Below are positions 11,464-33,057 of a DNA stretch of 64,000 bases, piece after piece. The notes beneath the pieces are model-generated. The model was not told where the DNA came from. It did not search any database and saw only the letters and a program-made list of their open reading frames with translations. The translations under genes and the position numbers were made by a program. How positions within the stretch are numbered: position 1 is the stretch's first letter; each line of letters begins with the position of its first letter. The DNA is taken from contig NZ_CP159837.1 in assembly GCF_040564635.1 (NCBI RefSeq), positions 7,055,001-7,119,000 of the forward strand. Reading direction: 5' to 3'. The stretch is from Planktothricoides raciborskii GIHE-MW2 (GTDB lineage Bacteria > Cyanobacteriota > Cyanobacteriia > Cyanobacteriales > Laspinemataceae).

Positions 11464-13818
11464 GTGAGTTACTGCCTAAATCCTAAATGTCCCAATCCTA
11501 CGGATCCACTGCATGAGCATCACCGCATTTGCCGACATTGTGGATCGGTTTTGCAGTTGCAAGGGCGTTATCGTGTCCAAGGTCTTTTGGGAGAGGGGGG
11601 TTTTGGCACAACCTATAAGGTACTCGATGAGCAAGCGGGGACGCCCCAGGTTAAGGTGCTCAAGGTACTCAGTTCCAAGAATCGCAAGGCGATCGAACTG
11701 TTTCAGCGGGAAGCGGCGGTGCTCCAGCGGTTACATCATCCGGGAATTCCCCTGGTGGAACCGGACGGTTATTTTATTTTTACCGGGAGAAACCAAGACT
11801 TTGAGTTGCATTGTTTGGTGATGGAGTTTATTGCCGGAGAAAATCTGGAACAGTGGATGAGCGATCGCGACCATTGTCCGATTACCGAAACCCAAACCGT
11901 TGAGTGGTTAATCCAACTGGTAGAAATTCTCCAACAAGTCCATCAACAGAATTATTTTCACCGGGATATTAAGCCGTCGAATATTATGCGGCGTTTTGAT
12001 TCCTCAGATAATGATGCGGAAAATAGCTGGCCGAGTCCGGTGGGTCAGTTGGCGTTAATTGATTTTGGCAGTGCCCGACAAGTTTCTGGGACTTATTTGG
12101 CTAAGGTGGCCGGGGGTGGTTCTCAGGTGACGGGAATTATTTCTCCCGGTTATACCCCCCCAGAACAAGCGAATGGTAAGGCGGTGCCCCAGTCTGATTT
12201 TTATGCTTTAGCCCGGACTTTTGTCTATTTGTTGACGGGCAAAGAACCGAATGTTTTTCCCGAAGATTCGCGGACTGGGGAGTTACAGTGGCGATCGCCG
12301 GTGGAGCATATTTTCCCCCCGTTGGTGGATTTGCTGGATTATATGATGGCCCCGTTTCCCGGCAACCGACCCCAAAATACTTATCTGATTTTGCAGCGGT
12401 TGCAAGAAATTCGTTCCACTTTGCACTCTGGGGGATATTCTCGACAATCTTGGCGCCACCGTCAAAGGCGATCGCCTACATCAGCATCAGGGACACAAGC
12501 GACACCAGGGGCGATCGGGTCATTACAATACCCCTCCCAGACCCCTTCCCCATTCCCACAGCTATCCCAGAATTTGATGCCATCTTGGGTCATTCCTTAT
12601 GCCACGACCCATAAACACCACCACCGCAGAAGTCATCGGCGCAGTCGTCACCGCACTTTTCGCCAATATGCGCCCAAATTATTGATGGGCGTGATCGCTT
12701 TAACAGTGCCAGTCACCGCTTTACAACTACTGAATGAGTTGGATTTACAGTATCTACTTTCTGCCTCTCCCTCATCTTCGGCAAGTCCTGCGGTGGAAAA
12801 TACGATCGCATCTAGTCCCGTAGAAGCTTTACCCTTGGAGACGGTGCTTTCTAAGCCATTGGAGAAAAATCCCACAGTCCCCGGAAAAGATTTTGTCCTG
12901 ACTAATACTCTCACCGGCCATGTTTGGGCAGTCAATACCGTGGATCTCAGCCCAGACGCTAAAGTTTTGGTCAGTGGCAGCGTGGATAAAACCGTGAAAC
13001 TTTGGGAAGTCGCTACAGGAACTCTGCTGCATACTTTACTAGCCCATTCCCAGCAGGTTTGGGTTGTCACCACCAGTCCTGATGGCAAAATGCTGGGGAG
13101 TGCCGGGGGTGACGGCAAGATTAATCTTTGGGAAGTCAGTACGGGTTATTGGTTACACACCATTGAGAGTCTTTCTTCTTGGGTGATTTCTTTGGCGTTT
13201 AGTCCCGATAGTAAAACTCTGGCTAGTGGGTCGCAAGATGGGACGATTACCTTGTGGGATGTGGAAAATGATGTGACTGGTTTTCCCAAAGGGGTGAAGC
13301 GGCAGCAGTTGTATGGTCATAGTCAGCCGGTGTTGGCGATCGCCTATTCTAAGTCGCAGCCGATTTTGGTCAGTGGCAGCAGTGACGGCACAATTCATAT
13401 CTGGAATTTGGCCAACGGCACGATCTTACGCACTTTACAGCGTCCTAGGGAACAACTCCGCGCTTTGGCTATTAGTCCGGATGGGCAAAAAATTGCCAGT
13501 GGCACTGACGATGGTACGTTTAATCTCTGGGATCTGAATACGGGTGAACTGCTGTTAGCGGTAAAAGCACATTCTGATGCGGTGCGGGCGATCGCCTTTG
13601 GTCGAGATGGACGAACGGTGATTACTGGGGGCGGCGCCCTGGATAGCCTGATTAAAGTGTGGGATGCCACGACCGGAGAACGGTTGCAAGTATTAACGGG
13701 TCATACGGATACGGTGCATTCCCTGAAACTTAGTGCCGATGGCCAAATGCTCACCAGTGGCAGCGAAGACAATACAATAAAAGTTTGGCGAGTTCTCTCG
13801 ATTGATCGGCTTCCATAG
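11464..13818 (+). CDS. Ser/Thr protein kinase with zinc ribbon and WD40 propeller
   Basis: A 784-residue membrane kinase. A small Cys4 ribbon (C4, C9, C23, C26) opens the protein. A Hanks-type kinase domain follows (about 35-310): GEGGFGTTYKV, HRDIKPSN and DFGSARQ. A His/Arg-rich linker leads to one membrane helix (about 400-415). Residues about 480-784 form seven WD40 repeats with the usual GH...SGS.D.TIKLW pattern. The start is GTG at 11464, because the ribbon begins right there. Such proteins sense or scaffold through the propeller, but substrates are unknown. Transcribed away from the RodZ-like gene. Confidence 0.93.
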   Translation: MSYCLNPKCPNPTDPLHEHHRICRHCGSVLQLQGRYRVQGLLGEGGFGTTYKVLDEQAGTPQVKVLKVLSSKNRKAIELFQREAAVLQRLHHPGIPLVEPDGYFIFTGRNQDFELHCLVMEFIAGENLEQWMSDRDHCPITETQTVEWLIQLVEILQQVHQQNYFHRDIKPSNIMRRFDSSDNDAENSWPSPVGQLALIDFGSARQVSGTYLAKVAGGGSQVTGIISPGYTPPEQANGKAVPQSDFYALARTFVYLLTGKEPNVFPEDSRTGELQWRSPVEHIFPPLVDLLDYMMAPFPGNRPQNTYLILQRLQEIRSTLHSGGYSRQSWRHRQRRSPTSASGTQATPGAIGSLQYPSQTPSPFPQLSQNLMPSWVIPYATTHKHHHRRSHRRSRHRTFRQYAPKLLMGVIALTVPVTALQLLNELDLQYLLSASPSSSASPAVENTIASSPVEALPLETVLSKPLEKNPTVPGKDFVLTNTLTGHVWAVNTVDLSPDAKVLVSGSVDKTVKLWEVATGTLLHTLLAHSQQVWVVTTSPDGKMLGSAGGDGKINLWEVSTGYWLHTIESLSSWVISLAFSPDSKTLASGSQDGTITLWDVENDVTGFPKGVKRQQLYGHSQPVLAIAYSKSQPILVSGSSDGTIHIWNLANGTILRTLQRPREQLRALAISPDGQKIASGTDDGTFNLWDLNTGELLLAVKAHSDAVRAIAFGRDGRTVITGGGALDSLIKVWDATTGERLQVLTGHTDTVHSLKLSADGQMLTSGSEDNTIKVWRVLSIDRLP

Positions 13819-15786: not shown

Positions 15787-15834
15787 ACCAGGGTCGAAAC
15801 CGGGTTTCTGTCTTAACTTCTGTCTAAGTATCAA

Positions 15835-15906
15835 AACTTAAATTAAGAAACCCGGTTTCTGGGCTGGGTTTCTGAACCCGGTTTCTGGGTTTCTGAACCC
15901 GGTTTC
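15835..15906. repeat. GAAACCCGGTTTCT direct repeats
   Basis: Several copies of (A)CCCGGTTTCTGGGTTTCTGA between the converging DUF3352 and helicase genes. The CCGGTTT/AAACCGG core is palindromic. Confidence 0.7.
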
Positions 15907-18900
15907 TCAACCCCCAGGTTTAATCCATTCATAACAAATTAACTGAATATCTTTTTCCGTGACATTGTTAGCCATTGTTTCTTGAGTGGGTTCTTTTGGT
16001 TCTAATTTGGCTTCTAAGTTGACATAATATTCATTTTCGACAAATAAGTCATCTAAGCTAATGATTAACTGCTGAATATTTTTCGTCACCGTGTATTCTA
16101 GCCAGAAATTTTTCAGTTCTTTGTTGTAGCTTTTCAAGTTTAAGGTTTTAATCACTTGCAAAATGCGATCGCTTGCTGCTACATCTTCTATAGAGTCATT
16201 GGGCTGAGTAAGCAGATGGTAAATTAGTTGAGGATATTTGGTCAGCTTGGGGGTAATTTTGGCGGTGGCTTGATCTTTTTTTAATGCGTTGAGGATATTG
16301 TTGACCGCGCCCTGAAAAATCGCAAAAACCGCCGCATCAAATTTGACCGGGGGCAATGTTTCTGGTGGGGGAAAGTCGGTTTCTTCACATTGAATCCAAC
16401 CATAGATTTTGCGAAGACTATGAACCATGTTTTGAGGGTCGGTACTAATGGCGCCGTTGATGCGGGGATAACATTGCCAAAAGTGGCGATCGCCTACCCG
16501 AAAAGCCAAGAAAATTCCCCCATCTTTAAAATTAGGTTCGGGAATATTAAAATGATAGGTGCTATGAATTCCTAGGGGAATATCTTCTAGTTCTTCTTTA
16601 GCAAATTTCTGGAGATATTGTAGCAGAGGAAAGCGCATTTCGTCAAGAGAAATTAGTTCTGCTGCTTGTTCTAATTCTTCCAGAATAGCGCGTTTTTCCG
16701 CCACCGTATCCGCTTGTTTAAGGCGCACTAATTCATCCAAAGAACGTTCGGAAATGCTTTCCCCCAAAACGGAGGCATCTAAACCGACTTCTCGGTCAAT
16801 AGTGGCAATTCTTTGTTGTAAACGTTTGACCAAATTGAGTAGTTTTTCTAGTCCGGCTTCGGGAAAGCAATTATAAATATATAGAGTAGCAAAATCCGTG
16901 CCTAAACGGTCAATTCGTCCCGCCCTTTGAATCATTCTGACTGGATTCCAGTGTAAATCATAGTTAACTAAAATCCCGGCATCTTGTAAATTTTGCCCTT
17001 CACTGAGAACATCAGTACAGATTAAAATATCAATAGGGTTTGCTTGGCAATATGCTAATTCTTCTTCATCTTGGGCGTTAGCTTTGGGGGCAAAGTGTCG
17101 CACTTTCGCTGCCCGTTGTTGACCGGAAGAGTCACCAGTAATTAGGTCAATTTTTGGGGTTTTGCCATGATGAGACATTTGGGTTAACCATGTTTTGTCT
17201 TTGGTTAGTTGTTCATGGAGATAGTTGGCAGTGTCTTTAAAGTAACTAAAGACTAAGATTTTTTGACCTTTGAGGTTTATTAATAGTCGTTTGAAGGCTT
17301 GTAGTTTCCGATCGCCCTCTTGGGCAGTTTGGGATGTTTCCACCGATGTTTTGATTTTGTCAATGATTGTTAAAATGCTATTTAGGGCTGCGAGGTCTGT
17401 TTCTATTTGCGATCGCAGTTCTTTAATGTCATAGTCTTTAATGGCGATCGCTTCTAAGTTTTCCAGAATAGTGGTGACAGACTCTTCATCATCTTCGCTT
17501 TCTAAGGCAAGAATCAGCTTTCTAAAGTTAACACTATCCAGCAATTTTCCTTCTTGAGTGAGAGTTTCATAGAACTTTGTTTGAAAATTATGTTGATTTT
17601 GCAGGGTGTTGGCAAAGGCAACTAGGGAACTTTCAAACCGCTTCAAATAGAGGGCTTTTTGTAGATAGACTAGGGCTTTATTTCGTTTCACCTCATCTTC
17701 ATCATCTTTTACCCGTTTTTTCTTGAAAGATTTGATGTTGTAAGGGGCAAGGTTGAGGCGATCAATTTTATCAGCGATCGCCTCATAGAGTCCGGCAAAA
17801 TTTTCCTCAAAGTTATAAGTAAATTTTTCTAATTGCCGTTTGGGGAATTTAATCACTTGTCCGGCAATGACAATTTCTTCCCCCGCTTGTTGACGTTTAA
17901 TTACATCTTGTCGGGTACGACGTACCATTGTTTCCATGAGTAAATCGGTAATTTCCGCTTTGCCTTCTTTCAGGTCTTTAAAATAGCTGGTCAAATTTCC
18001 CATGCCCCGATTTTGATATTTTAAATCGTTATTTTTGGTCAGCAGAGAGATTTGGTGATATAGGTCATAAATACTATTATTAATCGGCGTAGCGGTGAGC
18101 AATAATATCTTGCTGTCTTGGTTGCCGCTGGTTAAAAGTTTTTGCAGATTTTGATAGCGTTGGGTGGCACTATTTCTAAAGCTGTGGGATTCATCGACTA
18201 CGATTAAATCATGGTTACGGAAACGTCGCAGGTTAAAGTTTTGTCTACTCAGTTCTTCATGGGAAATAATATCCGCTTTGATGTTAAAATCATCCATTTT
18301 TTTACGCCAAACTAAATCCCGCAATTGGGCTGGACAAATCACTAGGGCGCGGGGTATTTTACCCGGTCTCCGCAATTTGATTAAGTAATGTTCTATGACT
18401 CGCAAACCAATAAAAGTTTTGCCTAAACCCACAGCATCCGCAACCATACATCCCCCATGTTTTTCTAGGAGTTTGATTGCCCTTTCAAAGCCTTCTTGTT
18501 GAAAATTGGCTAGATTTAAGCCGGTTTGCTGACTACCTTCGAGGAGGGTGTCATCTTTGAATTGTTCATATAAAGCTTTGATAAAAATTTGATAGGGAGT
18601 GTAAGGTTTACTGCCAAATTTGGAAGCGTTGAGGATATCAATTAGTTTGGTTTTATACTCCGTGTCTACGCTGGGGTGATCCCAGAATTTTTCAAACCAG
18701 TTTTCTCTCAGGTCACGGGCGATCGCTTCTATTTTATTCACAATATTCAGTTCCGTATTTCCCAGCAGACCGGAGGGGGTGAAGTTACTGGAACCGACGA
18801 TACTATAGTGGTCAAAAATATAGGCTTTGGCATGGAGGAATAGAGATTTGTTGCCCAATGCGCCAAAAAGTCGCACTTCTACGGATTCTTTTTCTAAGTA

Positions 18901-19218
18901 TTCGATTAACCGGGTAATTTGGTTTTTATACTCAACGTTAAATGCTTGGTGTTCTACTTGATTTTGGATTTCTCGCTGAAAATATTCAAGTAAATTAATA
19001 TGGTCTTTTTCTGCGGGGCGGATGCTAGGGTCACGACCAATAAGTAACCGCAATGATTCAAGTTGCTGCATGGATTTTTCCAGGCGAAACCAGGCTTCAA
19101 TGCGGAAAAATCCCGTAGCAATATCCAGCACTTTTTGGTTTTCCTGTTCAATAATTTGCATCAGGGTTGCTTGCAGGGTTCGGTTTTCTGAGTTATCGAT
19201 ATAGTCATGGATTTTCAT
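15907..19218 (-). CDS. PLD-nuclease/SNF2 helicase fusion protein
   Basis: A 1103-residue DNA-defence-type enzyme. The N-terminal PLD domain has one HxKx4D motif (H129, K131, D136) followed by GSSNFT (142-147). It could be a phosphodiesterase acting as a dimer. The SNF2-type motor follows: Walker A GLGKT (264-268), DESH (342-345), LLLTATP, then the helicase C part with ICTDVLSEGQNLQ and QRAGRIDRLG. The gene is intact. It lies downstream of, and in the same direction as, the methyltransferase gene, 1.4 kb of tandem repeat away. Helicase-methylase pairs occur in DISARM-like and restriction systems, so a role in phage exclusion is inferred. Confidence 0.88.
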   Translation of the reverse strand: MKIHDYIDNSENRTLQATLMQIIEQENQKVLDIATGFFRIEAWFRLEKSMQQLESLRLLIGRDPSIRPAEKDHINLLEYFQREIQNQVEHQAFNVEYKNQITRLIEYLEKESVEVRLFGALGNKSLFLHAKAYIFDHYSIVGSSNFTPSGLLGNTELNIVNKIEAIARDLRENWFEKFWDHPSVDTEYKTKLIDILNASKFGSKPYTPYQIFIKALYEQFKDDTLLEGSQQTGLNLANFQQEGFERAIKLLEKHGGCMVADAVGLGKTFIGLRVIEHYLIKLRRPGKIPRALVICPAQLRDLVWRKKMDDFNIKADIISHEELSRQNFNLRRFRNHDLIVVDESHSFRNSATQRYQNLQKLLTSGNQDSKILLLTATPINNSIYDLYHQISLLTKNNDLKYQNRGMGNLTSYFKDLKEGKAEITDLLMETMVRRTRQDVIKRQQAGEEIVIAGQVIKFPKRQLEKFTYNFEENFAGLYEAIADKIDRLNLAPYNIKSFKKKRVKDDEDEVKRNKALVYLQKALYLKRFESSLVAFANTLQNQHNFQTKFYETLTQEGKLLDSVNFRKLILALESEDDEESVTTILENLEAIAIKDYDIKELRSQIETDLAALNSILTIIDKIKTSVETSQTAQEGDRKLQAFKRLLINLKGQKILVFSYFKDTANYLHEQLTKDKTWLTQMSHHGKTPKIDLITGDSSGQQRAAKVRHFAPKANAQDEEELAYCQANPIDILICTDVLSEGQNLQDAGILVNYDLHWNPVRMIQRAGRIDRLGTDFATLYIYNCFPEAGLEKLLNLVKRLQQRIATIDREVGLDASVLGESISERSLDELVRLKQADTVAEKRAILEELEQAAELISLDEMRFPLLQYLQKFAKEELEDIPLGIHSTYHFNIPEPNFKDGGIFLAFRVGDRHFWQCYPRINGAISTDPQNMVHSLRKIYGWIQCEETDFPPPETLPPVKFDAAVFAIFQGAVNNILNALKKDQATAKITPKLTKYPQLIYHLLTQPNDSIEDVAASDRILQVIKTLNLKSYNKELKNFWLEYTVTKNIQQLIISLDDLFVENEYYVNLEAKLEPKEPTQETMANNVTEKDIQLICYEWIKPGG

Positions 19219-19237
19219 GGGATATTTGGCTCATTAT

Positions 19238-20625
19238 AACAGTTAACATTTTGCCCTGTGGAATAAGGGGAAAGCATTCGGATATTAAATTTGACGTTTT
19301 TTTCCAGAAATTGTTGCCCGAATGCTTTGCCCCTACAAACCTAATTTAATTTTGATTTTTGTAGGGGCAAAGGATTCGGTGATTAATTCCTGATTATCAC
19401 AGTTAACATTTCGGCCGAATGCTTTGCCCTGTGGATTAGGGCAAAGCATTCGGATATTAAATTTGGCGTTTTTTTCCAGAAATTGTTGCCCGAATGCTTT
19501 GCCCCTACAACGCCCTAAATTTTGATTTTTGTAGGGGCAAAGCATTCGGCGATTAATTCCTGATTATCACAGTTAACATTTCGCCCGAATGCTTTGCCCT
19601 GTAGATTAGGGCAAAGCATTCGGATATTAAATTTGGCGTTTTTTTCCAGAAATTGTTGCCCGAATGCTTTGCCCCTACAACGCCCTAAATTTTGATTTTT
19701 GTAGGGGCAAAGCATTCGGTGATTAATTCCTGATTATCACAGTTAACATTTCGGCCGAATGCTTTGCCCTGTGGATTAGGGCAAAGCATTCGGATATTAA
19801 ATTTGGCGTTTTTTTCCAGAAATTGTTGCCCGAATGCTTTGCCCCTACAACGCCCTAAATTTTGATTTTTGTAGGGGCAAAGCATTCGGCGATTAATTCC
19901 TGATTATCACAGTTAACATTTCGGCCGAATGCTTTGCCCTGTGGATTAGGGCAAAGCATTCGGATATTAAATTTGGCGTTTTTTTCCAGAAATTGTTGCC
20001 CGAATGCTTTGCCCCTACAACGCCCTAAATTTTGATTTTTGTAGGGGCAAAGCATTCGGTGATTAATTCCTGATTATCACAGTTAACATTTCGGCCGAAT
20101 GCTTTGCCCTGTGGATTAGGGCAAAGCATTCGGATATTAAATTTGGCGTTTTTTTCCAGAAATTGTTGCCCGAATGCTTTGCCCCTACAACGCCCTAAAT
20201 TTTGATTTTTGTAGGGGCAAAGCATTCGGTGATTAACTCCTGATTATCACAGTTAACATTTCGGCCGAATGCTTTGCCCTGTGGATTAGGGCAAAGCATT
20301 CGGATATTAAATTTGGCGTTTTTTTCCAGAAATTGTTGCCCGAATGCTTTGCCCCTACAACGCCCTAAATTTTGATTTTTGTAGGGGCAAAGCATTCGGT
20401 GATTAATTCCTGATTATCACAGTTAACATTTCGGCCGAATGCTTTGCCCTGTGGATTAGGGCAAAGCATTCGGATATTAAATTTGGCGTTTTTTTCCAGA
20501 AATTGTTGCCCGAATGCTTTGCCCCTACAAGGCCCTAAATTTTGATTTTTGTAGGGGCAAAGCATTCGGATATTAAATTTGGCGTTTTTTTCCAGAAATT
20601 GTTGCCCGAATGCTTTGCCCCTACA
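19238..20625. repeat. 170-bp tandem repeat array, about eight copies
   Basis: The marker GTAGGGGCAA recurs at 19361, 19531, 19701, 19871, 20041, 20211, 20381 and 20551, exactly 170 bp apart, with partial units at both ends. Copies differ at only a few bases (for example CGGCGATT/CGGTGATT and one CGGCCGAA/CGCCCGAA change). Each unit holds two inverted pairs of GGGCAAAGCATTCGG / CCGAATGCTTTGCCC, so an RNA copy would fold into repeated hairpins. Short overlapping reverse frames of 66 codons arise in every unit but step through all frames because 170 is not divisible by three. It fills the space between the two defence-like genes. Confidence 0.97.
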
Positions 20626-20657
20626 TTCTGTCTCAAAATTTATAATTTTTTCTCATG

Positions 20658-23600
20658 TTATCCGTCTCCTTTAATAATCGTCATGTCATCAGCAGTCAGC
20701 TTATACAGGTGGGCTACTCTGTCGTCTATTTCTGCCTCCCAGCGATCGACTCCGACTCCTTTCGCGGCTAGGCATTTTTCTACTAATTCTTCTATGGCTT
20801 GTTTGTCGGCTTCACTGGGTTTCGGGATGGGAATTTGTGAGACATATGTGGTTTGCATTGCATAAGCATCACCTTGTAACTTAGATGTTATATAACTTAG
20901 GAAAAACCAAACTACTTTTGAATTTAGTAAAGCGACTAGATATTTACTTGCATTGGGAATCAGAAAAGTTTTGTTATTAGAATAAAAGTGATAATCATCC
21001 CAAGCAAATGCTTGATAAGTTGCAATTTCTTGATAGAATATTTTCGGTTTTTCAAATTCATCCCAATACTGACAAGACCTTAACTCCCAGAAATATTTTC
21101 CCTGGTCACAACGTTTAATGAGTTGTTCTCGATACTGATTAAATCTTTGAGAAATTGCCGGATAAGTTTTAGCGAAAATATTTTCAGCTTCTTTTTCTGA
21201 TTTGCCACTCCAAGGATGTTCTTTATTTTCTGAGGATTCGATCTTAATTAAATATTGTTCAGCAAAGTCCACAGACCATCTTTTTACATCTCGACCTCGG
21301 AGAAATGGCTTGAGAACTTCAGCGGATGAAGGATGTTCGGCAATTAATCTATCCCGCGTTTCGCGATCGACGACAAAGGCTTCATTGAAACCTGTTTTAA
21401 TTCCATAGTAAAAACGACCATTGACATATTCACCGAGAGGAGTTCCGGCATTTCTTAACTTATCCAATAAGCGTAAAACTTTTGAGGATTCTAACCGCCA
21501 ACCATCGGGTTTTAATTCGGTTTGATCGAGAGAAAAAGCATTTTTTTGATAAACGGAAACAAAGTCTTCTAACTCCTGCCCTTCTTGCCAGGTCAATACA
21601 GAAACTTGATGAGATCCCCCCAAACCCCCCTTAATAAGGGGGGCTGAAGAGTCTGGATTTGATCCCCCCAAACCCCGCTTAATAAGGGGGGCTGAAGAGT
21701 CTGGTTGGGATTTCTCCCCCCTTTTTAAGGGGGGCTGGGGGGGATCTTCTTTTTTGACTACAATAATACTAGGATAAGCGATCGCCTCAAAGACATTAGC
21801 ATCGCCAAAATCAATCATTACTTCAATGGTGGATTTTGTCCCTAGATATTTGCGGAGTTTTTCCCCATACCCTGCCCGAAAATATTTATTAGAGGTGATA
21901 AAACTGAGATAACCTTTTTCCTTGAGTAAGCGAAATCCTTGTTCATAAAAATAAACATATAAATCCGCCACTCCCGTATAACAGTCATATTCCTCTTTTA
22001 AAGCGGGCTTAATTTCCTTAATTTGCTCTTGTCGCACATAGGGGGGATTGCCAATGACAATATCAAACCCTCCTTTCTGTTCAAAAACATCGCGAAAATG
22101 CAGATAATATTGAAAGAAATTTAAAGAGCGATCGCCCCTTTTTACCTGGGCTTCAAAGTCATCTAATCCTGCTAACCGGGCGGCTAACTGTTCCCGTTCT
22201 TGTAACTGCTGTTTGCTAGGTTTATCGAATTCCTTAATTTCTAGTTCTAACTGCTTTTGTTGTGCTAAAATAAAATGGCGTTGGTCGGCGATCGCCCCGA
22301 CAAAAACTCGTTTTTCCGCCTCCATAATTTGTAAGCGTAAATCTTGCCGTTCCTGAGAAGACACATGAAAATATTGTTTTTCTAATTTCAACAAATCCGC
22401 GATCGCCTTATCCAATTCCGTCATCTCAAAAGCGAAAGCTAACTGTTCCGATTGCCCCGGTATAGGAATAATCGTTTGCCCATTAATCTTAGAAATCAGC
22501 GAATCTCCACACATCAACTTATAATCTAAATTCGGCAAAGCTTCCACATTTTCTATAGTGGGAATATCCACCACCAAAGATAACCACATCCGCAGTTTAG
22601 CAATCTCGATCGCCTCTGGTTTAATATCCACCCCATAAAGATTATTAGCAATAATTTCTCGCTTCCATTCTGATATTGCCAAACTGCCTCGCTGGACGGT
22701 CATCCCTTCTCGACGGGCTACAGCTTGCCGCACATTTAAGATTAACTGCATCATCCCCAAAGGAAACGCCCCAGAACCCACCGCAGGGTCAAGAACTTTT
22801 AAATTCATCAGGGCTTTTTTGAGACTTTTCGCATCTTGGGGCGAAATTAATTCATTCAAATCTTTGTCGGAAATATCTGGGTCATAATGCACCAATTTTT
22901 GCGCCGTTTCTAAACTAATTCCCGTGGTATCTGCCAAATATCGCCCTAACACTTCCGCACAGATAAACTGAACAATTCCACGAGGAGTATAGAAGGTTCC
23001 CGACTTACCCCGTTCCTCTGCGGCTAACATATTTTCAAATACTTTCCCCAACATTTCTGGGTCAACCGCTACATCTTCATCCCCAGTAACATTTTCTGCC
23101 ACCGTGAAGTTATAGCTATTGAAAAATCCTAAAATGCTGTCAGAATTACCGGGGTCAAAAATCCGATTGGGCAATGTAATTAATTCCGGGGTTTCACGAC
23201 CAGCCCCATCTTGAATATTTTCCCCATAATCCCGGTCAAATAGTCCCCCATTTAAATAGGGAATTTGCCCCCAGGGGGATTGATGATTTTCTCGTTGCTG
23301 GTTTAAGGTGTCAAAAAATAATGGCTCTAAAATTTCGGTATAATAATCGGTATTTTCCGCTTGATAAGCACTTTTGCCTTTGCCATACATCGTTTTCAGG
23401 AATTGGCGATCGCCTGCCAAAAAGCCCTTTTTCTGGAGAAAATACAAGAACATAATCCGCCCCAATAACCTTTGGGTAAACTGAGAAAGCCGGTCTCTAT
23501 CGGCAAAATAGGGGTGAGGATTATGAGAGGAAATCGCCTCTAATACTCGGTGAAATAATTTCTGATATTCTTGATAAAATCCTTTGGTGAGTTTCTCAAC

Positions 23601-24113
23601 ATCAAAAGCTTCACATTGTGCTTGGTACAGTTCTCGGGCAGAACGACCCCGAACCGCGATCGCTTCTAAGCGGTCTAAATCATAAGCGGTGGGATTTTGG
23701 CGGTCGATTAATAACTTGCGAATACTTGCCTGTAAATTACTTTTTTCATCAAAAAACTTGCGAGGGTTGACTAACATCAACTGGTTATAGTCTTTTGTGG
23801 CTAATAACAAAAATTCCGAGGGTCTTTTGCCCAACTGAGAGGCGATCGCTTTCATCCGACCACTGGCGATCGATGGGGAAATCCAAGCCTCTGGTTTTAA
23901 CTCAAATAATATTACTTGCAAACCACCTCGGTCTTGGTCAGCAATCAAATAACCACCCGCGATCGCTTCTTCACTGCGAGGGGATAATTCTAAACTTTTT
24001 ATATCAATTGGTTCCGCTGAAGCGGTGTAACCTAATTGCTGAAAAATCTTAGCAATTTTATCCGGACTGGTTAAATCACGGAGGTCATCAATTTTTAGAA
24101 TACGTTGGTTCAT
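20658..24113 (-). CDS. Eco57I-type adenine-specific DNA methyltransferase (possible type IIG enzyme)
   Basis: A 1151-residue protein. The N-terminal third contains VILFELKPE, which could be part of a PD-(D/E)xK nuclease but is not proof. The gamma-class N6-adenine methylase core has motif I DPAVGSGAF (D442 on) and motif IV NPPY (689-692). The C-terminal part resembles a TaqI/Eco57I target-recognition domain (LKPFLRGRDVKRW, then YLVALLNSKVVWFF). About 46 residues (789-834) come from an inserted GC-rich repeat (21612-21747). The helicase gene follows. Similar to drmMI of DISARM, PglX of BREX and stand-alone type IIG enzymes; which one cannot be settled by eye. Confidence 0.88.
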   Translation of the reverse strand: MNQRILKIDDLRDLTSPDKIAKIFQQLGYTASAEPIDIKSLELSPRSEEAIAGGYLIADQDRGGLQVILFELKPEAWISPSIASGRMKAIASQLGKRPSEFLLLATKDYNQLMLVNPRKFFDEKSNLQASIRKLLIDRQNPTAYDLDRLEAIAVRGRSARELYQAQCEAFDVEKLTKGFYQEYQKLFHRVLEAISSHNPHPYFADRDRLSQFTQRLLGRIMFLYFLQKKGFLAGDRQFLKTMYGKGKSAYQAENTDYYTEILEPLFFDTLNQQRENHQSPWGQIPYLNGGLFDRDYGENIQDGAGRETPELITLPNRIFDPGNSDSILGFFNSYNFTVAENVTGDEDVAVDPEMLGKVFENMLAAEERGKSGTFYTPRGIVQFICAEVLGRYLADTTGISLETAQKLVHYDPDISDKDLNELISPQDAKSLKKALMNLKVLDPAVGSGAFPLGMMQLILNVRQAVARREGMTVQRGSLAISEWKREIIANNLYGVDIKPEAIEIAKLRMWLSLVVDIPTIENVEALPNLDYKLMCGDSLISKINGQTIIPIPGQSEQLAFAFEMTELDKAIADLLKLEKQYFHVSSQERQDLRLQIMEAEKRVFVGAIADQRHFILAQQKQLELEIKEFDKPSKQQLQEREQLAARLAGLDDFEAQVKRGDRSLNFFQYYLHFRDVFEQKGGFDIVIGNPPYVRQEQIKEIKPALKEEYDCYTGVADLYVYFYEQGFRLLKEKGYLSFITSNKYFRAGYGEKLRKYLGTKSTIEVMIDFGDANVFEAIAYPSIIVVKKEDPPQPPLKRGEKSQPDSSAPLIKRGLGGSNPDSSAPLIKGGLGGSHQVSVLTWQEGQELEDFVSVYQKNAFSLDQTELKPDGWRLESSKVLRLLDKLRNAGTPLGEYVNGRFYYGIKTGFNEAFVVDRETRDRLIAEHPSSAEVLKPFLRGRDVKRWSVDFAEQYLIKIESSENKEHPWSGKSEKEAENIFAKTYPAISQRFNQYREQLIKRCDQGKYFWELRSCQYWDEFEKPKIFYQEIATYQAFAWDDYHFYSNNKTFLIPNASKYLVALLNSKVVWFFLSYITSKLQGDAYAMQTTYVSQIPIPKPSEADKQAIEELVEKCLAAKGVGVDRWEAEIDDRVAHLYKLTADDMTIIKGDG
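21612..21747. repeat. GGGG/CCCC palindromic repeat inside the methyltransferase gene
   Basis: Two and a half copies of a unit containing GATCCCCCCAAACCCC, AATAAGGGG and GGGCTGAAGAGTCTGG. In the protein they read PLIKGGLGGS-like and PPQPPLKRG. The insert keeps the frame and falls between the methylase core and the recognition domain. Confidence 0.88.
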
Positions 24114-24667
24114 AAGTAATTATTGATATTTTAGATAAAAAAAGTTAGCGTTAGTCTGATAAAAAAGTGCTATTTAATAATAGTAAACTATTTTGATCCC
24201 CATTGCCATTAATTTAATTAAATCTTAATAATTTTGTTCCAAAAAAACCGCCAGGGATTAAAATCCCTGGCTAATAGCTAAAGTCGGTTTTAACCGACTA
24301 GAATTCTGTACGGGTCAACGGCCGTTGACCCCTACCAAACATAATTAGTCGGTTTTAACCGACTTGCGCTATGAGGCGGGGATTTTAATCCCCGACGGAT
24401 CGCAGGGTTACACAAAGGCTGGTTGAAAATGATGCAAGAAAAACCGCCAGCGCCAGGGATTAAATAAAATCCCTGGCTAATAGCTAAAGTCGGTTTTAAC
24501 CGACTGAAATGCTTTTACAGCGGTTTTCAGATTACTAAACCACGAGCGGGCCAGTGCAATATTGTAGAGGCGAATGGCCATATAGCCCCTACAAAAGAAA
24601 TATCACTATTCACTATTCACTATTCACTATTCACTTTCTCCTCTGCCGATGGCGGGTTCCTCTGCTA
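24114..24667. repeat. Dispersed-repeat cluster between methyltransferase and BMP gene
   Basis: There is no gene. Two copies of a composite repeat (24243-24300 and 24439-24505) each join a CCAGGGATTAAAATCCCTGG hairpin, a TAATAGCTAAA spacer and a GTCGGTTTTAACCGAC hairpin. Between them are GTCAACGGCCGTTGAC and GGGGATTTTAATCCCC palindromes. A GTAGAGGCGAATGG element (24564) and a CACTATT array (24605-24635) matching the one at 4541-4583 follow. Confidence 0.85.
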
Positions 24668-26076: not shown

Positions 26077-29000
26077 ATGCCAGCGATCGCCGGATATAAA
26101 ATTCTTCAAACCATCCATGAAAGTCCCAATTCACGAGTCTATCGAGGGCTGCGTGAATCAGACAATCAACCAGTGATTCTCAAAGTGCTTAAAGAGGACT
26201 ATCCGACCCCGGAAAAAATCCGCAAATATAAGCTGGAGTATCTGATAACCCACAATCTGAATCTTCAGCGGGTGGTCAAGTCCTATAGCCTAGAAACCTA
26301 TCACAATACCCTGATGATTGTTTTCGAGGATTTTGGCGGCAAATCGTTAAAAAGTTTAATGTCCCACCGCCGGTTTACCCTGGAAGAATTCCTAGAAATT
26401 GCGATCGCCTCTGCTGATAGTTTAGCAGAAATTCATGCGGCTAACATCATCCACAAAGATGTTAATCCATCGAACCTAGTTTATAACCCAGAAACTAAGG
26501 TTTTGAAGCTGATTGATTTTGGCATTGCCGTGGATTTTGCCAAAGACAGTCACCTGCTGGAAACCCCACAGATATTAGAGGGAACTCTTAGCTATATGTC
26601 CCCGGAACAAACCGGCAGAATGAATCGGATTTTGGATTATCGCACGGACTTTTATTCTCTGGGTGTAACTTTTTATGAACTCCTGACGCACCAGTTACCA
26701 TTTAAAGGGGCTGATGCAATGGAGTTAGTTCACTGCCACTTGGCTAAACAACCCCAACCTCCTCATTTAATTATACCCAATAATGGAGAAAAACAGCTAG
26801 ATAAATTTGAGCCAATTCCTCGAGCAATTTCCGACCTGGTGATGAAACTTTTAGCGAAAACTGCTGAAGAAAGATATCAAAGTGCTTGGGGGCTGAAAGC
26901 GGACTTAGAATTTTGCTTAAGTCAATTAAGATCCACAAGGGTGATTAGCCAATTCCCCTTGGGCAGCCAAGATATTTCTGACAAATTCCTGATCCCGAAT
27001 AAACTGTATGGGCGGTCTAAAGAAATAGCCCAGTTATTAGCAGCCTTTGAACAGATAGCGGGTCGAGGAAAGACCCCGAAGTCCTCAGCAACTTTAGGAA
27101 ATGTTTCTCCAGTTTCTCCAGTTTCTCCAGGATTTTTTTACCAAAAAGCCAGAATGATTACCGTGACGGGGGTTCCGGGAATCGGGAAATCATCCTTGGT
27201 GGCGGAAATTTATAAACCTATTACCCGGAAAAAAGGATATTTTATTTGCGGAAAGTTTGACCAATATCAGCGGAATATTCCTTATAGTGGGGTGATTCAA
27301 GCCTTTCAGGAATTGATTCGACAACTGCTGACGGAAAGTGAAGAGCAGTTGAATGAGTGGCGGACAAAAACTTTAAAAGTTTTAGGGGCTAATGCCCAAT
27401 TAATTCTGGAGGTAATTCCCGAATTTAAGCGGATTATTGGCTGTGAATCTGTGGGGTCATTTTTACCGGCGATGCAAGCGGAAAATCGCTTAAATTTGTT
27501 ATTTCAAAACTTAATCCAAGTTTTTGCTAATGCTGCACATCCTCTGGTAATTTTCCTGGATAATTTACAGTGGATTGATTCCGCTAGTTTAAAACTGCTG
27601 AAACTCTTGATGAGTGGCTGCTTGGATTTTGTTTTGTTTATCGGGGCTTATCGGGATAATGAGGTCAGTCATAGTCATCCTTTAATGCTGACTTTAAGTG
27701 AATTGGAACACCAGGGGGCAATTATTTCATCTATTTCTTTATCTCCTTTGAAATTAAAAGAAATTAATCAGTTAATTTCTGAGACGGTTAAGCAACCTTT
27801 AGAGGTTACGAAATATTTAGCCCAAGTAGTCCAAAATAAAACCGGGGGTAATCCGTTTTTTGTGAATGAGTTCTTAAAAGCTTTGGCCGCAGACCAGTTA
27901 ATTTACTTTGATTATCAACGAGGGTCTTGGCATTGGGAGATTAATCAGATTTCAGTCAGAGAAATTACTGATAATGTGGTTGAGTTGATGGCCAGTAAAA
28001 TTCAAAAATTGCCCGATTCTAGTCAAGAAAGCCTGAAGTTAGCCGCTTGTATTGGCAATCATTTTGATTTAGGGACTTTGGCAATGTTGAGTGGAAAATC
28101 CCTGAAGCAAACAACGGTAAATTTGCAAGCCGCAGTCCAAGAAGGGCTGATTGTTCCCTTAAGCGATCGCGATGGATTCTTACCAGAAACTTCTCTGGGT
28201 AATTTATCCGCATCCCAGCCATTGCATCTGTCTCAAACAAAGTCAATCGCCTACAAGTTTGTCCACGATCGCATTCAACAAGCGGCTTATTTTTTGATGC
28301 CAATGAAGGAAAAACAAGCGGTTCACTGGCAAGTGGGACAGTTTTTATATCAAAATACTCCAGAAAGCGATCGCGAGGCGAAAATCTTTGAAATTGTCAA
28401 TCAATTGAATGCGGGGAGCGAACAGATTAAATATCAGGGCGATCGCGATCGACTCGCGGAACTAAATTTAACTGCTGGCATCAAAGCCAAAACTGCTGCC
28501 GCTTATGAACTGGCTTTAAATTATCTCACCATCGGCATCACTTTATTAGGAGTTCGCAGTTGGCAAACCCAATATGAACTAACCTTGTTCCTCCATGTGG
28601 AAGCAGCGGAAGCGGCTTATTTAAGTGGGCATTTGCCGCAAATGTATAAATTTTCCTTAGTGGTTTTACAATCGGCCAAAAATATTTTAGATAAGGCAAA
28701 AGTTTATGAAATCAAAATCCAAGCCTACCAAGCCCAAAACCAGTTAAAAGAAGCGGTTCATACCGCTTTACCTGTTTTACAACTATTAGGGATTACCTTC
28801 CCTTCAGTCCCGGCAAATTCAACAACAACCGCTGTACCTCTGCATAAAATTTGGTTCGGAGTTTACCAGATTCAATGGGCAATGTTTTGCAAAAAAATTG
28901 AGGATTTAATTCATCTGCCGACCATGACCGATCCCATTCACCTGGCTGCCATTAGAATTTTATCCACCGTAGCTACCGCGTCTTATATTGCCGTTCCCGA

Positions 29001-32000
29001 ACTGTTTCCCCTGATTATTTTCAAAATGGTGAATCTCTCGCTAGAATATGGAAATTCCCCAGAATCTGCTTTTGCTTATGCTGGTTATGGGCTAATTTTA
29101 TCGGGATTTTTAGGGCAAATTAATGCCGGATATCAGTTTGGTCAGTTAGCCTTAAATCTGTTGTCAAAAGTTGAAGATCGCCAGATTAAAGCCAAAGTTG
29201 TCCAAACCGTGAGTATTTGGATTTTTCCCTGGAAACGGCATATCCGAGAAACCTTACAATCAGTCCGCCAGTTGTATCTAATGGGCAGGGAAACCGGGGA
29301 TTTAGAATGGGCTAAATATGCGGCGCATACTGGCTACTATTCCTATTTTAGCAGTCAGGAAGAACTGACGGTTTTAGAACAAGAAATGGCGGGGTATAGC
29401 CAGATTCTTTACCAGCTAAATCAAATTAACAGTTTTTATGGCAGTGAACTCTTTCGCCAGGGAATTTTAAATTTGATGGGAGAGGCGGCGAATCCCTGTG
29501 TTTTAATTGGCGAAGCTTATAATGAGTTAAAAATGTTGCCGGTGCATCAACAAGCTCAAGACCAAACTATTTTACACTACTTTTATTTAAATAAATTGAT
29601 TCTCTGCTATTTATTTGGCAACTATCATGAAGCGAGACAAAATGCGAAACTTGCTAAAAAATATGTAGCCGGAGTGGTGGGGACTATCGCCCTGCCGGTG
29701 TTTTATTTTTATGATTCTTTAATCTATTTAAGCCAAATTAATCCCGCTAGTCAGTTTCAAAAAAGAAGACAAATGCAAGAGATTTACCGAAATCAAAAGC
29801 AGATGAAGAAATGGGCTAAATTTGCCCCCATGAACTATTTAGCGAAATTTTATTTAGTTGAGGCTGAACGCTACCGGGCGAAGGGACAGGAAGCTAAAGC
29901 GATGGATTTTTATGAAAAAGCGATCGCCGCTGCGAAAAAATATGAATATCTTCACGAAGAAGCCTTAGCTAATGAACTTGCCGCTAAATTTTATGCGGAT
30001 AAACAACAAATTAATATTGCCAGGACTTATTTGCAAAATGCTCGCTATTGCTATGTCAAATGGGGGGCTAAAGCCAAAGCCAAGCAGTTAGAAGAAACTT
30101 ATCCCGAACTGCTTCCTTATCGAGCCGATCTGCGGCGCCTATCCGCCACAAACCATCATGGGATGACCTCCTTAACCTCCACGGAAACTCGCATGGCATC
30201 CGCCTTGGATTTAACCACGGTGGTGAAAGCATCTCAAGCCCTATCTGGGGAAATTGTCCTGGATAAGTTATTGGCCAAATTAATCACCATTGTCCTAGAA
30301 AATGCGGGGGCGCAAAAAGGCTTTTTAATTCTAGAACAAAATGGAGAATTAGTTATTGAAGCGGCTGGAGGTGTGGAAGATTCAGAAGTTTCAGTACGGC
30401 GATCGCATCCGGTGGAAAAAACTAACTTATTGCCGAAATCAATTATTAATTATGTAGCCAGAACTCACGAATATGTGGTGTTCAATGATGCCACCAAAGA
30501 AATTGATTCTCCTTTTTGTAAAATTCAAAATCCCGACGAGTCTTATATTCTTTTGCATCAGCCAAAATCCGTGCTTTGCGTGCCGATTATTGGCCAAGGA
30601 AAATTTATCGGCATTCTCTATTTAGAAAATAATCTCACCCCTGGGGCATTTACTCCTGATCGTCTCTTAGTTTTGCGCTTACTCTGTTCTCAAGCGGCGA
30701 TTTCTTTAGAAAATGCTCGTCTCTATGAAGCGGAGGAAGTCTATTCCCGCACCTTAGAAGCGAAAGTGCAAGAACGTACCGAAGAATTAGAAGAGCAAAT
30801 TCGCGTCAGGGCGCAAACTGAAGCGGCATTACGCTTATCAGAAGAAAAGTTTTCTAAGGCGTTTCGGTCTTCGCCGAATCCCATTGTTATTACTACCTTG
30901 GCTGCGGGAAAATTTATCGAAGTAAATGATAGTTTTTTGACGTTAACCGGCTATAGTAAACAAGAAGTGATTAACCAAATGAGTCATCACCTGAATATTT
31001 GGCAAAATCCTCAAGATGAAATCTCAATTATGCAGATGTTAACCACCGCCGATTCGGTGCATAATCAGGAATTTGCTTGGGGACTAAAGTCGGGAGAAAT
31101 CAGAACCGTTTTATTATCTGCTGAATTGATTAATCTGGGGGGAGAAGAATGTATTCTTTATTTGGTGAATGATATTACGGAACGCAAGCAAGCAGAAGAG
31201 GCGATCGCGGCCAATGAACGTAAATATAGAAATTTAGTAGAAACTTCTCAAGATATGATTTGGTCTGTAGATGCTGCCGGTCAGTTTACGTTTGTGAATC
31301 AAGCGGTGAAACAAATTTATGGCTACGATCCAGAGGAAATGAGCCAACAAAAGTTTACGGACTATGCGGATCCGAAACATCAGTACCAAGATAGGCAAAT
31401 GCTGCAAGAAATTTTAGCCGGTGAATCTGTATTTCACTATGAAACTGTTCACCGATCTAAACAAGGTCAACCCATTTATTTAATGGTGAATGCGATCGGG
31501 GTGCGAAATTGGCAAGGTCGTGTCGTGGGAATTACGGGCACCGCCAGCGATATTACTTATCTTAAACAAGCGGAAGAAGCTTTACGTCAATCAGAGAGTC
31601 AATTGAAAAAAGCCAAAGAAGCGGCAGATGCGGCGAATCAAGCTAAAAGCACTTTTTTGGCGAAAATGAGCCATGAATTGCGAACACCTTTAAATGCGAT
31701 TCTGGGGTTTACTCAACTGATGAGTCGCGATCACAGATTAACCCCGGAACAGCAAGAATATCTGAACATTATTAACTACTCTGGGGAGCATTTACTGGAA
31801 CTGATTAATGATGTGTTGGATATGTCTAAAATCGAAGCGGGTCATCTAGAATTAAACCCCACCAGCTTTGACTTATTTCGGTTACTCAATTCTATCTTTG
31901 AAATGTTGCAACTCAAAGCCACGGGCAAAGGTTTAAAATTCATCTTTCACTGTGACCCCAATGTGCCTCAATATGTGCAAACAGACGAAAGTAAATTACG

Positions 32001-33057
32001 CCAAGTATTAATTAATCTTCTGGGCAATGCGATCAAATTTACCGAACAAGGAATGGTGCAATTATCGGTGACGATGGTACAAAATTATGAGGATAAACTG
32101 CACTTCCAAGTTCAAGATAGTGGGCCGGGGATCGAACCCGATGAAACTGATGATTTGTTTGAGCCTTTTGTCCAAACTAAAACCGGGCGTAAATCCATTG
32201 AAGGCACCGGGTTAGGCTTGTCCATTAGCCGCCAATTTGTTCGCTTAATGGGGGGAGATATTTTGGTCAGCAGTTGTTTAGATGGCGGTACTCTATTTAG
32301 CTTTGAAATTACTATCCGTCTGGCCGTAGCTGGATCGGTGAAAGCGAAAATTCCCCCGGCAAAAATCGTCGGTCTTGCACCAAATCAGCCGGAATATCGT
32401 ATCTTGGTAGTGGAAGATCAAACCGCTAATCGAGTGATGCTAACCGAGTTACTACGATCGATTGGGTTTCAGGTGGGTGAAGCGATGAATGGCATTGAGG
32501 CGATCGCTTTATGGCGCAGTTGGCAGCCGCATTTAATTTGGATGGATATTCGGATGCCGGAAATGGACGGATTAGAAGCCACTCAGCAAATTCGCCAACT
32601 GCAAGACCCCAGTGAGGATCCAGTGGTGATTATTGCCCTCACCGCCAGTATCTTTGAAGAAGAACACCAACAGATATTAGCGATCGGCTGTAATGATTGG
32701 GTTCGCAAACCCTTTCGCCAGGAGGTAATTTTGGCAAAAATTGCTGAATATTTGGGGGTGCGTTATATTTATGAAACCAAAAATACCCATCACGACACCC
32801 TGACCCATCAATTATCCAGTAAAAACCGTTTACTCCATACGGACGAACTGAATGCGGATCATCTCAAAGCCATGTCTCCCCAATGGCGATCGCAACTCCA
32901 AGAAGCGGCCCTTTGTGCCAGAGATCAACGACTGTTTCGCTTGATTGACCAAATCCCACCAGAACATAGCCCCCTCGCGAATGTTTTAGTTGACTTAGTC
33001 AATAATTTTCGCTATGACAAAATCATGGATTTAATTCAACGGTGGCCGCATGAATAA
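26077..33057 (+). CDS. Giant Ser/Thr kinase-ATPase-GAF-PAS-hybrid histidine kinase
   Basis: A 2326-residue signalling protein. Order: Ser/Thr kinase domain (about 1-280; IIHKDVNPSN, with Lys where HRD is usual, and DFGIA); ORC/AAA-like ATPase (about 308-620; Walker A GVPGIGKSS near 363-371); helical TPR-like region (about 650-1350); GAF (about 1375-1545); two PAS domains (about 1585-1705 and 1712-1835); HisKA with His1866 (MSHELRTPLN); HATPase (GTGLGLS); and a C-terminal receiver with DIRMPEMDG (about 2105-2225). This is the architecture of cyanobacterial HstK-type kinases. The next gene overlaps it by eight bases, so the two are translationally coupled and probably form one phosphorelay. Stimulus unknown. 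Confidence 0.94.
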   Translation: MPAIAGYKILQTIHESPNSRVYRGLRESDNQPVILKVLKEDYPTPEKIRKYKLEYLITHNLNLQRVVKSYSLETYHNTLMIVFEDFGGKSLKSLMSHRRFTLEEFLEIAIASADSLAEIHAANIIHKDVNPSNLVYNPETKVLKLIDFGIAVDFAKDSHLLETPQILEGTLSYMSPEQTGRMNRILDYRTDFYSLGVTFYELLTHQLPFKGADAMELVHCHLAKQPQPPHLIIPNNGEKQLDKFEPIPRAISDLVMKLLAKTAEERYQSAWGLKADLEFCLSQLRSTRVISQFPLGSQDISDKFLIPNKLYGRSKEIAQLLAAFEQIAGRGKTPKSSATLGNVSPVSPVSPGFFYQKARMITVTGVPGIGKSSLVAEIYKPITRKKGYFICGKFDQYQRNIPYSGVIQAFQELIRQLLTESEEQLNEWRTKTLKVLGANAQLILEVIPEFKRIIGCESVGSFLPAMQAENRLNLLFQNLIQVFANAAHPLVIFLDNLQWIDSASLKLLKLLMSGCLDFVLFIGAYRDNEVSHSHPLMLTLSELEHQGAIISSISLSPLKLKEINQLISETVKQPLEVTKYLAQVVQNKTGGNPFFVNEFLKALAADQLIYFDYQRGSWHWEINQISVREITDNVVELMASKIQKLPDSSQESLKLAACIGNHFDLGTLAMLSGKSLKQTTVNLQAAVQEGLIVPLSDRDGFLPETSLGNLSASQPLHLSQTKSIAYKFVHDRIQQAAYFLMPMKEKQAVHWQVGQFLYQNTPESDREAKIFEIVNQLNAGSEQIKYQGDRDRLAELNLTAGIKAKTAAAYELALNYLTIGITLLGVRSWQTQYELTLFLHVEAAEAAYLSGHLPQMYKFSLVVLQSAKNILDKAKVYEIKIQAYQAQNQLKEAVHTALPVLQLLGITFPSVPANSTTTAVPLHKIWFGVYQIQWAMFCKKIEDLIHLPTMTDPIHLAAIRILSTVATASYIAVPELFPLIIFKMVNLSLEYGNSPESAFAYAGYGLILSGFLGQINAGYQFGQLALNLLSKVEDRQIKAKVVQTVSIWIFPWKRHIRETLQSVRQLYLMGRETGDLEWAKYAAHTGYYSYFSSQEELTVLEQEMAGYSQILYQLNQINSFYGSELFRQGILNLMGEAANPCVLIGEAYNELKMLPVHQQAQDQTILHYFYLNKLILCYLFGNYHEARQNAKLAKKYVAGVVGTIALPVFYFYDSLIYLSQINPASQFQKRRQMQEIYRNQKQMKKWAKFAPMNYLAKFYLVEAERYRAKGQEAKAMDFYEKAIAAAKKYEYLHEEALANELAAKFYADKQQINIARTYLQNARYCYVKWGAKAKAKQLEETYPELLPYRADLRRLSATNHHGMTSLTSTETRMASALDLTTVVKASQALSGEIVLDKLLAKLITIVLENAGAQKGFLILEQNGELVIEAAGGVEDSEVSVRRSHPVEKTNLLPKSIINYVARTHEYVVFNDATKEIDSPFCKIQNPDESYILLHQPKSVLCVPIIGQGKFIGILYLENNLTPGAFTPDRLLVLRLLCSQAAISLENARLYEAEEVYSRTLEAKVQERTEELEEQIRVRAQTEAALRLSEEKFSKAFRSSPNPIVITTLAAGKFIEVNDSFLTLTGYSKQEVINQMSHHLNIWQNPQDEISIMQMLTTADSVHNQEFAWGLKSGEIRTVLLSAELINLGGEECILYLVNDITERKQAEEAIAANERKYRNLVETSQDMIWSVDAAGQFTFVNQAVKQIYGYDPEEMSQQKFTDYADPKHQYQDRQMLQEILAGESVFHYETVHRSKQGQPIYLMVNAIGVRNWQGRVVGITGTASDITYLKQAEEALRQSESQLKKAKEAADAANQAKSTFLAKMSHELRTPLNAILGFTQLMSRDHRLTPEQQEYLNIINYSGEHLLELINDVLDMSKIEAGHLELNPTSFDLFRLLNSIFEMLQLKATGKGLKFIFHCDPNVPQYVQTDESKLRQVLINLLGNAIKFTEQGMVQLSVTMVQNYEDKLHFQVQDSGPGIEPDETDDLFEPFVQTKTGRKSIEGTGLGLSISRQFVRLMGGDILVSSCLDGGTLFSFEITIRLAVAGSVKAKIPPAKIVGLAPNQPEYRILVVEDQTANRVMLTELLRSIGFQVGEAMNGIEAIALWRSWQPHLIWMDIRMPEMDGLEATQQIRQLQDPSEDPVVIIALTASIFEEEHQQILAIGCNDWVRKPFRQEVILAKIAEYLGVRYIYETKNTHHDTLTHQLSSKNRLLHTDELNADHLKAMSPQWRSQLQEAALCARDQRLFRLIDQIPPEHSPLANVLVDLVNNFRYDKIMDLIQRWPHE

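Follow-up and report, generated by a model that had tools for sequence, protein, structure and literature searches.

A PLD-SNF2 helicase-nuclease beside an Eco57I-type methyltransferase in Planktothricoides raciborskii: a probable two-gene restriction-modification cassette with sigma-factor partners at related loci

The window, the whole 64,000-nucleotide stretch of the Planktothricoides raciborskii GIHE-MW2 genome (G000) analyzed here, carries a pair of large genes on the reverse strand, at 7.07 Mb in the genome. One encodes a helicase-nuclease with a phospholipase D (PLD) domain on a SNF2 motor (below, the helicase), and the other an N6-adenine methyltransferase (MTase) with a target recognition domain (TRD). 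The first 171 residues of the MTase form an N-terminal domain, termed MTN, which is also found on sigma factors at related loci. The features are as follows (G and L numbers denote genomes and loci).

15816-24665, reverse strand: discrete cassette, consisting of the two genes and a repeat array and nothing else, from comparison with the same-genus genome G183
15907-19218, reverse strand: PLD(HKD)-SNF2 helicase-nuclease, 1103 residues, from profiles, motifs and fold
18811-18834, reverse strand: HKD motif HAKAYIFD, helicase residues 129-136
18415-18429, reverse strand: Walker A motif GLGKT, helicase residues 264-268
19250-20576, no strand: tandem array of 7.8 copies of a 170-bp unit with palindromic repeats, in the bay between the genes, from tandem-repeat analysis
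20658-24113, reverse strand: Eco57I-type N6-adenine MTase with TRD, 1151 residues
20847-21281, reverse strand: part of the TRD exchanged relative to the same-species genome G037, MTase residues 945-1089 (43 of 128 aligned residues identical, 23 gap columns)
21613-21704, reverse strand: in-frame 48-bp repeat (PLIKGGLGGS type) in the linker between the MTase catalytic domain and the TRD, absent in G037
22038-22049, reverse strand: NPPY catalytic motif, MTase residues 689-692
23601-24113, reverse strand: MTN domain, MTase residues 1-171

The domain order of the helicase is PLDc_2, SNF2 and Helicase_C, and Pfam profiles and motif reading give a single HKD motif per chain. All 33 chosen sequences in the alignment retain H129, K131 and the Walker A lysine K267. 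The AlphaFold model (pLDDT 82.8) contains the SNF2 core. Profiles, motifs and fold thus all describe a translocase with a nuclease domain, as expected of ATP-dependent restriction-modification (R-M). The MTase matches the Eco57I, N6_Mtase and TaqI_C profiles and has the motifs DPAVGSGAF and NPPY. Its MTN domain is modeled as a confident compact fold (pLDDT 92.3). These results confirm the coordinates of both genes and their description in the initial annotation as an HKD/PLD-SNF2 protein and an Eco57I-type N6-adenine MTase with a TRD.

The flanks of the cassette match G183 at 86-87%, and the matches end at window positions 15815 and 24666; the two flanks sit on different contigs of G183, so that the joined empty site is not seen. 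The only open reading frame (ORF) of at least 100 residues between the two genes overlaps the 3' end of the MTase gene, and a six-frame scan of the window finds no second MTN and no match to a sigma factor. The repeat family of the array has 109 matches across the genome, and one unit has a predicted folding energy of -71.7 kcal/mol (z -9.7). Palindromic GGGGGATC-rich repeats also lie in frame within ORFs at 21613-21704 and 48075-48264, where they encode PLIKGGLGGS and PPTPRSKGGIELSS peptides.

Comparison with G037 shows that the TRD has been swapped cleanly between two genomes of one species. The helicase genes differ at 6 of 3312 nucleotides. Outside the swap the MTases are nearly the same, with 783 of 788 residues identical in 1-788, 105 of 108 in 837-944 and 55 of 62 in 1090-1151. 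In G037 the helicase and MTase genes are on separate contigs, both of which end near the bay. A replaced TRD in an otherwise near-identical MTase, beside an almost unchanged helicase, is what is expected of a change of specificity in an R-M system, and exchangeable target recognition is a property of ATP-dependent R-M. Because a same-species counterpart of this MTase form exists, the specificity of the window MTase is directly testable by long-read methylomes. Elsewhere in the family, ORFs of 63-64 residues that match the TRD C-terminus lie directly downstream of MTases with a different TRD (L215:5310-5501 and L216:4860-5054), and are possible scars of TRD replacement.

Loci of the helicase family, taken from a scan of genome contigs for the best 80 of 562 relatives, occur in cyanobacteria, Chloroflexota, Planctomycetota, archaea, Nitrospiraceae and others. 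Among 41 loci with at least 9 kb of upstream sequence, a gene with an MTase core lies upstream on the same strand in 31 and downstream in four, one has sigma/MTN remnants, and five have neither partner. Since MTase and helicase genes thus co-occur on one strand at 35 of the 41 loci, we consider it highly improbable that the MTase works on its own as a Type IIG enzyme, next to an unrelated PLD-SNF2 gene, even though Type IIG models are the top PADLOC matches of the MTase (398 bits). A conserved D/ExK signature was also looked for in the MTN domain, and none is present.

Judged from the sequences, the window pair is probably an ATP-dependent R-M system of two genes. The MTase is predicted to locate its sequence through the exchangeable TRD and to mark adenines in host DNA. 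It would double as the targeting subunit, on which the MTN domain docks the helicase. The helicase would then translocate on unmarked DNA and cut it with the PLD active site. Since each chain has one HKD motif, this site is probably built by two subunits, as in known PLD nucleases. At related loci, where an MTN-headed, SigA-like sigma factor can take the partner position, the helicase would remain the effector and the partner would set the target. Protection by methylation and a role of the pair in defense are likewise predicted. MTN may be the dock, because it is the sole part common to the MTase and the sigma factor. The helicase stays mostly intact, with a low ratio of nonsynonymous to synonymous substitution rates (dN/dS), where the MTase is gone, suggesting that its targeting depends on a partner, as that of HsdR depends on HsdM and HsdS.

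At close orthologues of the helicase, the upstream gene often shares just the first ~170 residues with the MTase. After MTN, a domain scan reads the sigma-70 regions 1.2, 2, 3 and 4. The MTN domains of eight such proteins have 31-48% identity to that of the window. The best solved-structure matches of the L064 sigma factor are SigA proteins (E 4e-75), and we take the top entries to be cyanobacterial. In eight measured loci the end of the sigma gene either runs into the start of the helicase gene or precedes it by 12-111 bp. In a 17-row alignment sigma region 2 and the RERxRQ motif of region 4 are conserved except in the truncated L073, which may be broken. In a 13-row alignment the sigma-paired helicases keep the HKD residues except that of L069. 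All of these features would fit a helicase-nuclease that acts on whichever complex holds its MTN partner. With the MTase it would restrict unmarked sites, and with the sigma factor it would be kept at the RNA polymerase of the host, or at promoters, and released, or aimed, upon phage takeover of transcription. For the sigma-form loci we regard this as possible but rather unlikely; it is compatible with the R-M reading of the window pair. A still more tentative proposal is that the family is a PLD-SNF2 motor with interchangeable MTN partners, either an MTase or a housekeeping-like sigma-70 factor, in which the sigma form is a methylation-free defense tying the nuclease to RNA polymerase. That form would act on phage promoters or fire when a phage seizes host transcription.

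The partner was recorded in 37 hand-collected cyanobacterial loci by a six-frame scan, with a sigma factor called at 250 or more of 318 model columns; several of the loci are near relatives, and the numbers are counts rather than independent events. An MTase core without sigma is found in 15 of the 37, with the MTase interrupted by an insert in L201 and L221. A sigma factor without an MTase core is found in 15 others, among which the sigma is truncated in L073, the helicase lacks the PLD domain in L069, and both helicase and sigma are broken in L199. All three genes (MTase, sigma and helicase) are present in one locus, L216 of Planktothrix p4. The remaining six (L071, L097, L085, L091, L120 and L139) have neither; L071 has remnants of both partners and L097 a TRD remnant, and the upstream DNA available is 1,008 bases for L085, 220 bases for L120 and ~10 kb for L091 and L139. 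In L065 and L195, MTase remnants (MTN and TRD pieces with the catalytic part gone) lie directly upstream of the sigma gene, and in L067 that place is taken by just a TRD piece. On a Nodularia plasmid (L315) both the MTase and the MTN-sigma gene are truncated, and there is no helicase match.

These remnants, together with the three-gene locus of Planktothrix p4, favor an alternative in which the MTN-sigma protein is a mere local transcription regulator of the bay operon and the MTase-less loci are decaying R-M systems. A sigma dN/dS of 0.20-0.38 (three pairs), above that of the helicase, points the same way. However, most helicases next to sigma genes have their full length and the HKD motif. 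In five pairs covering both partner types the helicase dN/dS is 0.08-0.11, and it is 0.09-0.11 in the two sigma-form pairs (L064-L067 and L064-L195), whose operons are without an MTase core. For comparison, that of the MTase core is 0.07 in one pair; with a dS near 2, the ratios of two helicase pairs and of the MTase pair are rough. A plain regulator would also need no MTase N-terminal domain. We therefore doubt this alternative, which is likewise compatible with an R-M function of the window pair, but give it some weight.

The helicase tree has 35 rows (15 with MTase, 14 with sigma and six with unknown partner) and is a quick tree with no bootstrap and one long branch (L089). It requires a minimum of six partner changes, five of them forced by starred branches, while shuffled partner labels give a mean of 10.0 changes and a value as low in 3 of 500. 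Partner type is clustered on the tree, yet there is no single split, and it has changed at least five times in the helicase family. In the 39-row MTN tree, which includes solitary MTN-sigma forms, MTase and sigma forms are separated by one change (91/98; 88% of 200 bootstrap trees). This favors a single origin of the MTN-sigma fusion. Repeated changes on the one tree and a single change on the other agree with the view that the helicase acts through its MTN partner, but the three genes of Planktothrix p4 suggest that the sigma may have joined the MTase as a regulator instead of replacing it. In the sister pair G105 (MTase) and G213 (sigma), DNA similarity covers the 3,303 bp of the helicase ORF at 91.3%, start codon to stop codon, and goes no further; the G213 contig ends 263 bases past the helicase stop. 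An upstream flank of 2.8 kb is common to G299 and G199 (91.6%), and G199 has ~5.7 kb of additional DNA there. The G299 locus has MTase and helicase; in G199 the MTase is reduced to MTN and TRD pieces, followed by an MTN-sigma gene and then the helicase, which has ~72% DNA identity to that of G299.

MTN-sigma genes are also found apart from the helicase. Fourteen genomes with MTN-sigma-like genes have no helicase orthologue (best match E 7e-29, residues 690-891); eight were inspected as loci (L082-L084, L207-L210 and L212) and six are known by a similar MTN match only. Solitary MTN-sigma proteins of ~480-500 residues, with no helicase in the surrounding stretch (L082, L083, L084 and L207-L210), are possibly domesticated. 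Other variants are an MTN-sigma protein with pentapeptide repeats (L069:7619-12784) beside the PLD-less helicase, which starts near family residue 160, and giant MTN-sigma proteins of ~2,290-2,440 residues (L070:2196-9392, L198:7631-14794, L205:8048-15367 and L218:23-6892). The L070 protein is extended by ~1,900 residues, and near residues 1700-1850 it has an AAA match below the cut-off.

Several of these observations weigh against the two-gene R-M system. Protection by the MTase is not obligatory, since 15 of the 37 cyanobacterial loci pair the helicase with a sigma factor and have no MTase core. For the same reason, cutting of unmethylated DNA by the PLD domain, as the initial annotation had proposed, is plausible from the sequence but cannot be the whole story. 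Neither partner is present at five of the 41 loci, and one sigma-paired helicase (L069) has no PLD domain. MTN cannot be solely a dock for this helicase, as 14 genomes have MTN-sigma without it, and this also counts against the view that the helicase is governed by its MTN partner. Since the window bay consists of repeats, it is uncertain whether the MTase promoter drives the helicase gene.

If the partner does set the target, evolution would have redirected a single nuclease motor from methylation marks on DNA toward the transcription machinery, and restriction would be linked to RNA polymerase in a way that is open to experiment. G105 and G213, whose helicases are closely related (91% DNA identity) and whose partners differ, would then be a natural experiment. 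The window copy is the MTase form of the family, with its TRD-swap counterpart in G037.

The pair shares its enzyme classes with larger defense systems. The top PADLOC profile of the helicase is C3a139 'HKD+Snf2' (PDLC01075; 228.7 bits across residues 11-876), a single-protein model with no partner described in the scan output, and weaker matches are DrmD, HmaA and BrxH models. Class 1 DISARM (drmD and drmMI) likewise has a SNF2 helicase beside an Eco57I-like MTase, a likeness that had been pointed out in the initial annotation. Membership is not supported: the helicase scores 154.7 bits against the DrmD model NF038317 (cut-off 610) and has its own PLD head, and gene length and reading, with flanking genes taken without a profile scan, show no drmA-, drmB- or drmC-like gene adjoining the pair. 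The MTase scores 121 bits against BREX_1_MTaseX (cut-off 500) and is thus no PglX equivalog. Type-2 BREX-Related (BR) systems, which are DUF499-centered and Hma-like, have an HKD nuclease N-terminal on a Swi2/Snf2 helicase, an N6-adenine MTase and, as in BREX loci, back-up effectors comparable to the bay genes described below (PMC12839542). The window pair has the same two enzymes. A stand-alone DUF3780 gene is another feature of DUF499-centered systems, and the DNA between the two window genes offers just the ORF that overlaps the MTase 3' end. It differs in having no adjacent DUF499 ATPase, in the MTN domain of its MTase and in the distance of its helicase from HmaA (66 bits, whereas one DUF499-linked SNF2 helicase of the same genome scores 1642); the sections and passages of the BR study consulted here mention no sigma partner (PMC12839542).

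Genomic distances agree with the scores. The only MZB match (DrmB-type) of the genome is at 6.51 Mb, 0.56 Mb from the pair, and is clustered with SNF2 and MTase genes of its own. The three DUF499 matches are at 6.37, 5.69 and 1.45 Mb, the nearest 0.70 Mb away, and the first two each adjoin another SNF2 gene. The genome thus holds a separate DISARM-like cluster and two DUF499-helicase clusters, all at least 0.5 Mb from the pair. No MZB, DUF499 or PglZ profile matches within 0.5 Mb of it, and PglZ has no match anywhere in G000. Among 13 genomes with helicase orthologues, DUF499 is found in six, MZB in eight and PglZ in two, there on contigs other than that of the helicase; in the drafts among them, distances are defined only within a contig. 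Only G139 has such a gene within 20 kb of the helicase on its contig (MZB, ~14 kb, opposite strand), and the 12 genomes other than G000 have no DUF499 match on the helicase-bearing contig. We also surveyed 124 neighbor proteins of 166 candidates from 42 loci, chosen for having both MTase and helicase genes in hand. OLD/AAA and IrrE-HTH are the commonest families, as judged from the best 25 of 148 Pfam families, including every family with at least three members. DUF499, MZB and PglZ each match at most two of the 124, and no Drm or Brx model matches five or more (best 25 of 414 PADLOC families, down to four members). The idea of a decayed or dispersed part of DISARM, BREX or DUF499-centered (Hma/BR) systems is largely refuted by the scores and distances, and we give it very little credence. 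The first suggestion, that the pair stands alone, is supported. It was also called minimal; its core is indeed two genes, but 29 of the 42 loci have a further ORF of at least 200 residues between them (28 counting operon-strand ORFs only).

Type I R-M operons may embed a back-up gene such as PrrC, and there, too, MTase and translocase genes flank a variable anti-phage gene. The differences are that the window MTase and TRD form a single chain, in Type IIG style, and that the nuclease is of PLD type rather than the PD-(D/E)XK type of HsdR. RapA, an RNA-polymerase-associated SNF2 ATPase, is of interest for the sigma pairing. The helicase matches RapA weakly (residues 729-774, E 1.9e-8), and CHD1-like remodelers slightly better (1.6e-9). 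RapA has no PLD domain and, to our knowledge, does not pair with a sigma factor.

In relatives the bay would often carry a back-up effector; the window bay is without a gene. Several bay genes are defense-like: OLD/AriA-like ATPases, PDC-S39, PDC-S06, RmrA-like, DUF559, KilA-N, Mrr (Mrr_cat), nucleotidyltransferase with SLATT, and DUF262. An LRR gene is also found. Three of the first ten bay genes scanned have no Pfam match (L088, L095 and L066). Of the second ten, three have none (two of L203, and L085, where the MTase side is beyond the contig end) and two of L204 have sub-cut-off matches only. Full-length helicase relatives are present on eight plasmids, seven cyanobacterial (59-65%) and one of Deinococcus (41%). 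Cyanobacteria have two more clades of stand-alone HKD-SNF2 and Eco57I-type MTase pairs, which we call pairB (L225-L228 and L230) and pairC (L074, L080 and L159), and their MTases have no MTN match. Such pairs are therefore a recurring design, and the family of the window is set apart by the MTN domain and the sigma exchange. In L225-L230 the helicase comes first in six of six pairs, and the L230 MTase continues past the contig end. Outside the cassette, the window flanks include a kinase with WD40-like repeats at 11464-13818 and a 2,326-residue kinase/ATPase/PAS/hybrid-histidine-kinase-like protein at 26077-33057, both assigned by eye.

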